A stretch of DNA of 64,000 nucleotides from Rhizobium halophilum (lineage in GTDB: Bacteria > Pseudomonadota > Alphaproteobacteria > Rhizobiales > Rhizobiaceae): contig NZ_JAKJHS010000007.1 of assembly GCF_021648825.1 (NCBI RefSeq), forward strand, positions 62,001 to 126,000, given 5' to 3'. Positions 14,950 to 43,706 of this stretch are shown here, piece after piece. Positions within the stretch are counted from its first letter, which is position 1; every line of letters begins with the position of its first letter. The notes beneath the pieces were generated by a model. That model ran no database searches. It was given only the letters and a program-made list of their open reading frames with translations, and was not told where the DNA came from. Both the position numbers and the translations under genes were made by a program.

Positions 14950-15095
14950 AAAAAAAAACAAGGCCTGTTGGCCTTGTCTTAAGTTTCGCGTGATCCTTAA
15001 CCGTTGCCGGGGCAGCGACGAGCGCGCCTAAGATCTGATCCTCCCAAGACTTGACCGCGAACAAGCAAGGATCTGATCTCCTTGCCTCTTTTATG
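14950..15095 (-). ncRNA. alpha-r9-type trans small RNA candidate
   Basis: The 430-base gap between DUF1467 and proS holds a compact minus-strand RNA unit. A promoter-like pair (-35 at 15124-15129, GTGACA; -10 at 15102-15107, CTAGGT; 16-base spacer) predicts a start near 15095. The transcript would begin with a hairpin of 7-base arms (15065-15085). It would end in an 8-bp GC-rich hairpin (14958-14977) followed on the minus strand by a run of about nine U, an excellent intrinsic terminator. The length is about 146 nt. From memory, Sinorhizobium Smr9C, founder of the alpha-r9 family, lies next to proS, is minus-strand and is about 149 nt. No target is known to me. Confidence 0.75.
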
Positions 15096-25812: not shown

Positions 25813-26184
25813 ATGCCCAAGCGGGTCATGATTGTCGAAGACAACGAGCTGAACATGAAGCTCTTCCGCGACCTCATCGAAGCTTGCGGCTACGAAACCA
25901 TCCAGACCCGCAACGGCATGGAGGCAATGGACCTTGCTCGCAAGCACCGCCCGGACCTCATCCTCATGGACATCCAACTCCCGGAGGTCTCCGGTCTGGA
26001 GGTCACCAAGTGGCTGAAGGAGGACGACGAGCTTCACATCATCCCCGTGATCGCCGTTACCGCCTTCGCCATGAAGGGCGATGAAGAGAGGATCCGTCAG
26101 GGCGGGTGCGAGGCCTATGTATCAAAACCCATCTCGGTGCCCAACTTCATAGAGACCATCAAGACCTACCTAGGCGACGCATGA
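25813..26184 (+). CDS. divK: Single-domain cell-cycle response regulator DivK
   Basis: DivK is a stand-alone receiver domain that, when phosphorylated, feeds back through DivL/CckA-type kinases to lower CtrA activity and so sets cell-cycle and polarity decisions. The 123-residue protein has acidic pocket residues E9 and D10, the phospho-acceptor D53 (LMDIQLP) and a conserved lysine in SKPIS near 105. There is no output domain. Homologues in Sinorhizobium are essential. I start at ATG 25813, since upstream in-frame codons lack any family similarity. PleD follows 16 bases later. Confidence 0.96.
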
Positions 26185-26200: not shown

Positions 26201-27640
26201 ATGACGGCGCGCATTCTGGTGGTGGACGATATCCCTGCGAACGTAAAGCTGCTGGAGGCACGGCTGCTTGCGGAATATTTCGACGTGCTGACCGCGGACG
26301 ACGGATTCAAGGCACTCGACATTTGCAGGGGCACGCATGTCGATCTCGTCCTGCTGGATATCATGATGCCGGGCATCAGCGGCTTCGACGTCTGCGAGCG
26401 ACTGAAGGCGGATCAGCGAACGGCTCACATTCCCGTGGTGATGGTGACGGCTCTCGATCAGCCGGCGGACCGGGTTCGTGGGCTGAAGGCCGGTGCGGAT
26501 GATTTTCTCACGAAGCCGGTCAATGATCTGCAACTCATCTCCCGCGTGAAAAGCCTCGTTCGCCTGAAAACACTGAGCGACGAGCTGCGTATCCGCGCAG
26601 AAACCGCGCAGAACATCGGTATCGAGGACATGCTGAAGGGCCCGGACGGCCGTGACGAGCCGGGGCAGGTGCTCCTGGTTGACGGCCGTGCAAGCTCGCA
26701 TGAGCGCATCATCAAGGCGCTCAAGCCGATTGCGCATGTTGTTGCCATCTCTGATCCGCAGGCGGCACTTTTCGAAGCGGCCGAAAACCCTTTCGACCTC
26801 GTTATCGTAAATGCCAATCTGGAGGAGTACGACCCCCTTCGTCTGTGCTCTCATCTGCGCTCGCTTGAACGCACCCGCTTTCTGCCGCTGCTCCTTGTCA
26901 CTGAGCCGGGGGCCGAGGACGTCATCGCCCGCGCTTTGGATATCGGCGTCAATGACTACATTGTACGTCCCATAGACCCCAACGAACTGCTTGCGCGAAG
27001 CCTTACCCAGATCAAGCGGAAACGGTTCAACGACCGGCTTCGCACCAGCCTGCGCCAGACGATCGAACTCGCGGTTACCGACGGCTTGACCGGCCTCCAT
27101 AATCGTCGCTACCTCGACAACCACCTTAGAACGCTGTTCGATCGCGCGGCTGCGCGGGGACGTTCGCTCTCGATCTGCATTGCCGATATCGATCATTTCA
27201 AGGAGGTGAACGATACCCACGGGCACGACGTCGGCGACGAGGTGCTGAAGGAATTTGCGAACCGCATCCGATCAACTGTCCGGGGTGCGGATCTTGCGTG
27301 CCGTTATGGGGGCGAAGAATTCGTCTTGGTGATGCCCGATACGGACGCCGACGTCGCGAGTGCGATTGCAGAACGGCTCCGTAACCTGATTGCCAGCGAG
27401 CCTTTTGTTCTCAAGAAGGCGGGTTTGACATTGACTATAACGGCTTCGCTGGGCGTTGCGTCCAACGACGGCGGAGCGGAGACCCGTGAGCAGCTTCTCA
27501 AACAGGCCGACAGGGCACTTTACGAGGCGAAGAGTGGCGGGCGCGATCGCGTCGTTCTGTCAGGCCCGCCGCGCGAAGCGACGGACTTGCGCAGCATTGA
27601 AAGCATCGCTTTCCCCACAAAACTTCAAAAGGTGGTGTGA
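26201..27640 (+). CDS. pleD: Diguanylate cyclase response regulator PleD
   Basis: PleD makes cyclic di-GMP in response to phosphorylation, linking cell-cycle signalling to surface and motility behaviour. The 479-residue protein has a receiver domain with phospho-acceptor D53 (LLDIMMP) and a second, degenerate receiver at about 155-280. A GGDEF domain has active site GGEEF at about 370-374, and an RxxD product-inhibition site (RGAD) lies ten residues before it. Both catalytic and feedback sites are intact. It is cotranscribed with divK (16-base gap). Confidence 0.96.
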   Translation: MTARILVVDDIPANVKLLEARLLAEYFDVLTADDGFKALDICRGTHVDLVLLDIMMPGISGFDVCERLKADQRTAHIPVVMVTALDQPADRVRGLKAGADDFLTKPVNDLQLISRVKSLVRLKTLSDELRIRAETAQNIGIEDMLKGPDGRDEPGQVLLVDGRASSHERIIKALKPIAHVVAISDPQAALFEAAENPFDLVIVNANLEEYDPLRLCSHLRSLERTRFLPLLLVTEPGAEDVIARALDIGVNDYIVRPIDPNELLARSLTQIKRKRFNDRLRTSLRQTIELAVTDGLTGLHNRRYLDNHLRTLFDRAAARGRSLSICIADIDHFKEVNDTHGHDVGDEVLKEFANRIRSTVRGADLACRYGGEEFVLVMPDTDADVASAIAERLRNLIASEPFVLKKAGLTLTITASLGVASNDGGAETREQLLKQADRALYEAKSGGRDRVVLSGPPREATDLRSIESIAFPTKLQKVV

Positions 27641-27792
27641 CCATTATCGTGGCGACGTCGCTGATCGCTTTCGTTTGACGACTTTCTTCTGCAGTGCGGG
27701 CGGGGTGTCCGCTCCACGGTCGTGTGCAGATTTTAACCAAGAGTGGACCTTCTTGGTGCCGAATTTAAGAATATGTTGATCTTCCTCCCGTT

Positions 27793-27820
27793 TTGCGCGA
27801 TTTTGGATTGGACATATACT
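27793..27820 (+). promoter_or_regulatory. Putative promoter of the small RNA downstream of pleD
   Basis: TTGCGC (27793-27798) and TATACT (27815-27820), 16 bases apart, form a good housekeeping-type promoter. Initiation near 27827 would place the first hairpin of the RNA 14 bases into the transcript. Confidence 0.5.
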
Positions 27821-27826
27821 TATCTT

Positions 27827-27987
27827 CGTCGGTTCCGATACCCCATGATGCTCAGGTCCGCCGCATCTCCTGGGTCGTGGGGTCGGTCGACCGGGTTGCA
27901 GTCAAAGGCGGTTCCTCGTGCCGCTTTGCAGCCGGTCGACCCCCAAAAGAAAAGCGCCGCCTCCTATCGGAGCGGCGCTTTTTCTTT
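27827..27987 (+). ncRNA. Three-hairpin trans small RNA candidate, EcpR1-like
   Basis: The 406-base gap between pleD and rpmG contains a strongly structured unit of about 160 nt. Hairpin 1 (27841-27882) pairs CCCCATGA/TCGTGGGG and CTCAGG/CCTGGG around a 12-base loop rich in C and U. Hairpin 2 (27885-27941) has a perfect 10-bp base GGTCGACCGG/CCGGTCGACC and an inner stem with a TTCCTC-containing loop. Hairpin 3 (27951-27981) is a 13-bp terminator stem followed by TTTTCTTT. C/U-rich loops can pair with Shine-Dalgarno sites. From memory, the Sinorhizobium cell-cycle RNA EcpR1, which targets dnaA and gcrA, lies between pleD and rpmG. Confidence 0.75.
27951..27987. terminator. Bidirectional intrinsic terminator between the small RNA and rpmG
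   Basis: A 9-bp stem AAAGCGCCG/CGGCGCTTT extended by CTCC/GGAG with loop TATC has a T run on the plus strand. On the minus strand the opposite arm is followed by TTTTCTTTT. It can end both the plus-strand small RNA and minus-strand rpmG, whose stop lies about 60 bases away. Confidence 0.85.
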
Positions 27988-28046: not shown

Positions 28047-28214
28047 TTACTTGATTTTGGCTTCCTTGAACTCGACGTGCTTCTTAGCAATGGGATCGTA
28101 CTTCGTCTTGGACATCTTGTCCGTAAAGGTACGGCTGTTCTTCTTGGTTACGTAGAAGAAACCGGTGTCCGCCGTCGACAGCAGCTTGATCTTGATGGTC
28201 GTAGCTTTCGCCAT
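28047..28214 (-). CDS. rpmG: 50S ribosomal protein L33
   Basis: This is a 55-residue ribosomal large-subunit protein. It begins [14 protein letters not shown], contains YVTKKNSRT and [19 protein letters not shown] at the end, and has the usual basic composition. It lacks the zinc-binding cysteines seen in some L33 paralogues, so it is the Cys-minus form. The gene lies between an MFS transporter gene upstream on the same strand and the shared terminator downstream. Confidence 0.95.
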
Positions 28215-43571: not shown

Positions 43572-43579
43572 TTAACCAT
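43572..43579 (+). promoter_or_regulatory. CtrA half-site TTAACCAT
   Basis: An exact 8-base half-site of the type recognised by CtrA in alpha-proteobacteria lies 49 bases upstream of the full box. Alone it would be weak evidence. With the nearby full box it supports a CtrA-bound region. Confidence 0.4.
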
Positions 43580-43627
43580 ACCCGCCGGTTTCCGTTGCGT
43601 CGGGACGCCGCTCGCCTAAGTGTGGGG

Positions 43628-43644
43628 TTAACCGAGTGTTAACC
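43628..43644 (+). promoter_or_regulatory. Full CtrA box TTAA-N7-TTAAC
   Basis: TTAACCGAGTGTTAACC matches the CtrA consensus exactly, with the seven-base spacing. It lies 63 bases upstream of the first codon of the small gene at 43707 and 191 bases upstream of the DUF6105-like gene. CtrA is the master cell-cycle regulator acting downstream of DivK, whose gene is at 25.8 kb. No clear -10 was identified. Confidence 0.65.
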
Positions 43645-43706
43645 ATGGACGGATCGAGCCGTTGCCGCAGGGAACGCCATATACGGACCGGGCATTGCTG
43701 AGCATC

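Follow-up and report, generated by a model that had tools for sequence, protein, structure and literature searches.

The feature at 27827-27987 of the window, the whole stretch of 64,000 nucleotides analysed here, was confirmed as the gene for EcpR1, a known small RNA (sRNA), and is an ordinary gene in a new genome. Very probably it belongs to a Rhizobiaceae bacterium of Pseudorhizobium/Neorhizobium type, is read from a sigma-70-type promoter and encodes a loop 1 that is predicted to pair with the gcrA leader and to lower GcrA synthesis. EcpR1 has been described before, as a brake on the cell cycle of stressed bacteria of the root-nodule type; what may be new is the conserved CtrA-like architecture of its promoter, together with a gcrA match tied to the genomes that keep EcpR1.

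The ecpR1 gene and its RNA

An earlier, sequence-only reading of the window had named EcpR1, and the name is upheld by an Rfam score above the curated cut-off, by the locus, by the near-invariant loop 1 and by covariation of the stems. The family RF02500 (Atu_C6/EcpR1) covers 27838-27946 of the plus strand in full length, with 98.1 bits against a gathering score of 60 (E 6.5e-13), so that homology to EcpR1, rather than a lack of it, was found. The features to which the text refers are as follows.

25813-26184, plus strand: divK (start predicted), an open reading frame (ORF) with a DivK-like receiver sequence
26201-27640, plus strand: pleD, the upstream neighbour, an ORF 89% identical to its Pseudorhizobium pelagicum homologue
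27733-27740, plus strand: CtrA-type half-site TTAACCAA, 32 bp upstream of the full-type site (motif search, family conservation)
27765-27779, plus strand: CtrA-like full-type site TTAA-N7-TTGA (TTAAGAATATGTTGA), overlapping the -35 (motif search, family conservation)
27775-27803, plus strand: sigma-70-type promoter by homology, with -35 GTTGAT at 27775-27780, N17 and -10 CGATTT at 27798-27803 (position and spacing as in S. meliloti)
27809-27987, plus strand: EcpR1 sRNA gene as the predicted primary transcript, its 5' end deduced and its 3' end in a T-rich stretch up to 27987
27838-27946, plus strand: RF02500 Atu_C6/EcpR1 match, with a covariance-model score above the curated gathering score
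27840-27883, plus strand: stem-loop SL1, whose loop UCCGCCGCAUCU at 27857-27868 is the pairing segment (fold, covariation, near-invariant loop)
27885-27941, plus strand: stem-loop SL2, with loop UCCUCGU at 27913-27919 (fold, covariation)
27946-27987, plus strand: intrinsic terminator hairpin with a T-run after and an A-run before it (fold and sequence)
28047-28214, minus strand: rpmG (ribosomal protein L33), the convergent downstream neighbour, an ORF and a conserved neighbour

The gene order is divK-pleD-ecpR1-rpmG, with ecpR1 about 170 bp after pleD and on the same strand, and the position between pleD and rpmG known from Sinorhizobium, which had also been pointed out, is thereby found in the window. 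The ORFs were named divK, pleD and rpmG by recognition of their translations. A genome-wide model search gave one copy of ecpR1 in the window's genome. The Rfam scan of the window also matched ar9 (RF02343), an sRNA of alphaproteobacteria, at 14950-15094 on the minus strand with 135.3 bits. Among named PleD proteins the closest came from Pseudorhizobium pelagicum (89% identical over the best segment), followed by Neorhizobium proteins at 83 and 81%. Among 106 ecpR1 loci of 3 kb or more, PleD was found nearby in 103 and RpmG in 95; 20 of these loci had been fetched via a PleD search, and without them the count for PleD is 83 of 86.

The three strong consecutive stem-loops described from the letters are present where they had been placed: the fold of 27827-27987 has an energy of -85.9 kcal/mol against -58.3 (sd 4.3) in 200 dinucleotide shuffles (z -6.4), none of which was as good. 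Covariation was assessed on an alignment of SL1 and SL2 without the terminator, comprising 43 homologues, four of them (L210, L211, L213 and L214) from outside the order. Across 25 pairs, 96.6% of the cells were standard-paired, and 17 pairs were changed on both sides. Cells with such a change number 92, where column shuffles give 27.6, and none of 500 shuffles equalled the alignment on any measure; when the partner was shifted by 1-3 columns, pairing fell to 32-52%. Both SL1 and SL2 covary. What varies within the family is the SL2 stem, in whose outer helix all 11 pairs were changed on both sides in some sequence. The loop positions G18-T29 and T31-G35 (numbering of the first sequence) were invariant in 43 of 43, and of the 152 loci in which the 20-mer GGTCCGCCGCATCTCCTGGG could be located, 3 mismatches being allowed, 143 have it unaltered. 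The species compared in the publication that set the EcpR1 numbering (PMC4414408) share the positions from C16 to G36, and this loop 1 block, CAGGTCCGCCGCATCTCCTGG, is identical in the window at 27853-27873.

Since C16 of the published numbering falls on 27853, the second (processed) 5' end would lie at 27838, where the Rfam match starts, and the first, 29 nt upstream, at 27809. The 5' end is probably near 27809 and not at 27827, that is, about 18 nt upstream of the start first proposed, and the RNA, which had been taken to be about 160 nt long, can be inferred to measure about 171-179 nt (171 in S. meliloti). The promoter that had been called fitting is a divided case: a scan for the sigma-70 consensus gave none at ecpR1, but GTTGAT-N17-CGATTT is homologous to the experimentally mutated S. 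meliloti promoter, ATTGAT-N17-CAATGC (PMC4414408). The bidirectional terminator that had been proposed is plausible, as the A-run before the hairpin, the T-run after it and the convergence of ecpR1 and rpmG suggest that it may be shared with rpmG; the hairpin at 27946-27987 was, however, absent from the list of the consensus terminator scanner. In S. meliloti, expression of EcpR1 depends on stress, stationary phase and ppGpp, species of 101, 142 and 171 nt are observed, and the sRNA is Hfq-independent and RNase E-dependent (PMC4414408). By analogy with those experiments, from which transcription, repression, induction by stress and ppGpp and the involvement of RNase E are carried over, the sigma-70-type promoter would make an RNA of about 172 nt that is probably processed to the SL1-SL2 core.

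A CtrA-like element at the ecpR1 promoter

The element upstream of ecpR1 is real, conserved and, in the sample, family-specific. TTAA-N7-TTGA occurs in 96 of 122 distinct ecpR1 upstream regions of the family (shuffle mean 0.7) and TTAACCA in 67 (shuffle mean 1.9), the 122 regions not being independent, with about 29 from the window's genus and 20 from the PleD search; the full-type CtrA-like motif was found at 0 of 27 ecpR1 loci outside the family. TTAACC stands 32 or 33 bp upstream of TTAA-N7-TTRA in 58 of 64 counted cases, a distance of three helical turns.

The motifs used for CtrA in Agrobacterium are TTAA-N7-TTAA and TTAACCAT (PMC11527210), and minC, which is directly regulated by CtrA in S. 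meliloti (PMC5900048), served as a control. It was found in 19 of 41 genomes, and 13 of the 19 carried TTAA-N7-TTRA upstream, all 13 with TTAA as the second half. The combination of TTAA-N7-TTGA and TTAACCA at ecpR1 belongs to the same motif class as the genome's own minC site, GTTAACCATTTGTTAACCAT, from which the candidate ecpR1 site differs in ending with TTGA and in coinciding with the -35. With a matrix built from those 13 minC sites alone, one per locus (one locus has two overlapping sites), 102 of the 122 ecpR1 regions exceeded the 95% level of the background and 64 the 99% level; with local shuffles of the upstream regions as the reference, 87 and 66 did so. The best hits lay on the -35 block in 92 of 106 cases. 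With conserved CtrA-type sites lying over the -35, CtrA may set the timing of ecpR1 transcription. It is proposed tentatively, with a likelihood somewhat below even, that ecpR1 in Rhizobiaceae is a direct target of CtrA, which from TTAACCA and TTAA-N7-TTGA would time an sRNA that shuts down gcrA (and dnaA in some species); ppGpp would be the other signal feeding into the ecpR1 promoter.

The block could instead be an extended sigma-70 promoter, in which an AT-rich upstream element precedes a TTGATT -35, or the site of another regulator, an explanation that comes very near to an even chance. Its second half-site TTGA doubles as the -35, and the fact that none of the 13 minC sites has a TTGA second half speaks against an ordinary CtrA site at ecpR1; moreover, 73 of the 106 best hits of the minC matrix lie on the block in minus orientation, and the motif is missing at every ecpR1 locus sampled outside the family. 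In S. meliloti, expression is described as depending on sigma-70 and ppGpp, with no CtrA effect mentioned in those accounts (PMC4414408, PMC7143759), and neither pleD nor rpmG nor EcpR1 appears in the main text of the paper on CtrA of S. meliloti (PMC4433202). On the other hand, 230 kb of background, searched on both strands, contained TTAA-N7-TTGA just 5 times against its high frequency at ecpR1 promoters, the nearly fixed spacing of TTAACC in many of them would be needless for an upstream element, and most regions exceed the minC-matrix background, also when compared with local shuffles. Control by GcrA/CcrM through GANTC sites was considered and dropped, as these occurred in 74 of 122 upstream regions against a shuffle mean of 64.3 (largest 76) and were not enriched.

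Control of ecpR1 by CtrA is not stated in the EcpR1 literature found by full-text search of open-access articles without their supplements. No binding of CtrA to the S. meliloti origin is reported and the CtrA effect is called 'indirect, unknown' (PMC4433202), while in another study CtrA sites were reported absent before dnaA and unidentified regulators linking CtrA and DnaA in rhizobia were suggested (PMC2877005). Direct control of ecpR1 by CtrA, if true, would supply the missing indirect arm that restrains replication and would make EcpR1 the rhizobial counterpart of CcnA of Caulobacter crescentus; the conserved CtrA-like promoter architecture would then be a concrete, testable answer to the question of how CtrA reaches into rhizobial replication control. 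CcnA is a non-coding RNA with a CtrA box that acts on ctrA and gcrA, and is described as having no clear homologue in S. meliloti (PMC8959179). Set beside EcpR1 by its description, it is unlike it in its locus by the origin, in its loop CCCC binding GGGG and in acting also on ctrA.

The window has a single further TTAA-N7-TTRA, TTAACCGAGTGTTAACCAT, which together with a TTAACCAT standing 56 bp before it occupies 43572-43646; a short ORF and a membrane-like protein of 124 aa follow. This site resembles the CtrA consensus more closely than that of ecpR1 does.

gcrA and dnaA as candidate targets

In S. meliloti, a 13-nt stretch of the gcrA mRNA at -109 to -95 pairs with loop 1, as supported by mutation (PMC4414408). 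The gcrA leader of the window's genome contains AUGCGGCGGA at -114 to -105, near the mapped S. meliloti site, as a perfect 10-nt complement of the loop 1 segment UCCGCCGCAU. Complement and duplex scans covered 30 of 41 gcrA genomes and 30 of 41 dnaA genomes. A perfect complement of 10 nt or more was present in 16 of the 30 gcrA leaders, in every case starting between -115 and -98, compared with 36 of 6000 random 240-nt windows from loci without gcrA. The energy of the RNAduplex pairing between loop and gcrA leader reached p<=0.05 against shuffles in 13 of 30; the window's own leader gave p 0.23, no better than shuffles, and the argument for gcrA therefore rests on conservation and position. 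Under the preferred reading, the loop 1 segment UCCGCCGCAU would bind AUGCGGCGGA, which lies close to where the gcrA leader begins and some 110 nt before the start codon, and this pairing would lower GcrA synthesis in a stressed or starved cell.

A further 17 + 8 leaders bring the comparison to 53 genomes, each of them either with an EcpR1 match of more than 60 bits or with none found. As positives it takes the 34 of 97 genomes for which the gcrA leader was read; G261 and G361, with a weak divergent EcpR1 of 38 and 47 bits, were left out, the gcrA search gave nothing in G290, and G328 was counted as negative despite a 28.5-bit match (E 0.06). The anchors of L297 and L300 in this table are not start codons, and 7 of the 19 negatives are genomes under 3 Mb. 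A gcrA complement of 10 nt or more was found in 19 of the 34 EcpR1-positive and 0 of the 19 EcpR1-negative genomes (Fisher 1.6e-5, Mann-Whitney 5e-6, both ignoring relatedness). A tree-aware pair test on the GcrA tree, with 6 well-supported independent pairs, gave on average 2.7 in the same direction and 0.0 in the opposite one (median p 0.25), and was without power for want of independent pairs, so that relatedness is a possible cause of the co-occurrence. In several EcpR1-negative genomes a decayed gcrA site, such as GTACGACGGACC or GTACGGCGAACC, occupies roughly the corresponding position.

The role as a regulator of dnaA and gcrA that had been ascribed to the sRNA is supported on the side of gcrA, by the 10-nt complement at a conserved place and with the duplex energy as given above, but not on that of dnaA in the seed and duplex tests. 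Repression of dnaA by EcpR1 in S. meliloti was traced by mutation to two weak sites near the start (PMC4414408). Here the windows were placed relative to the match of the DnaA model (-260 to +10 or +40) rather than to an established start; the duplex with the loop reached p<=0.05 in 1 of 30 genomes (median p 0.48; own genome p 0.705), and the longest exact complement to loop 1 was 5-8 nt, with 8 nt in 1 of 30 and 6 nt in the window's genome. For this genome's dnaA, short segments about the candidate starts gave -13.6 to -19.8 kcal/mol, values that had no control and count neither way. It is concluded that dnaA is not a target that the sequence would predict in the window's genome; since the S. 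meliloti sites are weak yet supported by mutation, this null result does not disprove repression of dnaA. A long gcrA match was seen, in 53 genomes, solely where EcpR1 is kept, and dnaA was without such a match in 30 genomes; on these grounds gcrA may be the older or main target of EcpR1.

That the RNA is an EcpR1 homologue whose chief target in this lineage is neither gcrA nor dnaA, its loop being held by another mRNA or by many, appears rather unlikely, with an appreciable chance all the same. Loop 1 is invariant, or nearly so, even where the CtrA-like promoter is lacking and outside the order; the 10-nt gcrA match is missing in 15 of the 34 EcpR1-positive genomes, which counts against the preferred reading; and in Methylosinus the target predictions of two programs are reported to have overlapped little (PMC12403871). 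Against this, the gcrA site keeps its position wherever it is present, and decayed forms of it stand at roughly that position in several genomes in which no EcpR1 was found.

Pairing of the C/U-rich loops with Shine-Dalgarno regions, another suggestion of the sequence-only reading, does not suit the gcrA site: the segment pairing with gcrA is UCCGCCGCAU of loop 1, which meets its target far upstream of the Shine-Dalgarno sequence, and not CATCTCCT. Shine-Dalgarno targeting was accordingly rejected as the main mode, the sole target supported here, gcrA, being paired some 110 nt upstream of its start. A kissing-loop with a gcrA leader hairpin was likewise dropped because a small hairpin around the site formed in some of 25 folded leaders and not in others. 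Separately, the gcrA upstream regions L217, L219, L221, L223, L225 and L232 carry AGGTTAA, a TTAACC-type half-site on the minus strand, slightly before the site for EcpR1; the corresponding region of the window's genome (L031) does not.

Known relatives and distribution

The closest known system is EcpR1 of S. meliloti (also SmelC291, Sra33 or SmrC10; RF02500, Atu_C6), with which the RNA of the window shares the sequence-structure model, the pleD-rpmG locus and the SL1 loop, and furthermore the SL2 loop UCCUCG, the terminator, the promoter layout and a complementary site in the gcrA leader. It differs in its -10, which is CGATTT in the window and CAATGC in S. meliloti, and in that no dnaA seed is supported in the window's genome. 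That the divK-pleD mRNA simply has its 3' end and terminator in these stem-loops, as their short distance behind pleD on the same strand might suggest, is extremely improbable given the conserved promoter block, the near-invariant loop, the covarying stems and a Northern blot that showed an independent transcription unit in S. meliloti (PMC4414408). GspR (SmelC775) of Sinorhizobium is likewise a trans-acting sRNA of the rhizobial cell cycle; it differs from EcpR1 in targeting ctrA and cspA5 via different loops, and is reported there only in Sinorhizobium (PMC5928217).

Earlier work found EcpR1 in five families of Rhizobiales (PMC4414408, PMC3927594). At E<=0.001, the model matched in all 57 genomes of the window's genus, at least 97 of 121 of the family and at least 170 of 249 of the order, and a class-wide draw gave a match in at least 7 of 289 genomes, 5 of them outside the order; owing to strict search filters, these counts are lower bounds. 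By model search EcpR1 went undetected in scattered genomes of the family (G303, G305, G310, G319, G322, G324, G328, G329, G334, G338, G340, G341 and others), 20 of the 24 EcpR1-negative family genomes being among those listed, and its presence and absence require at least 8 changes of state on the GcrA tree. A divergent lineage is represented by L313 and L314 (G361 and G261; 47 and 38 bits), in which the loop begins GGTTCGCC and the gcrA site is also altered, to TCGGGGCGGACA, with changes that do not look compensatory. In five genomes from two families outside the order (L210-L214), EcpR1 is found with loop 1 unchanged or nearly so.
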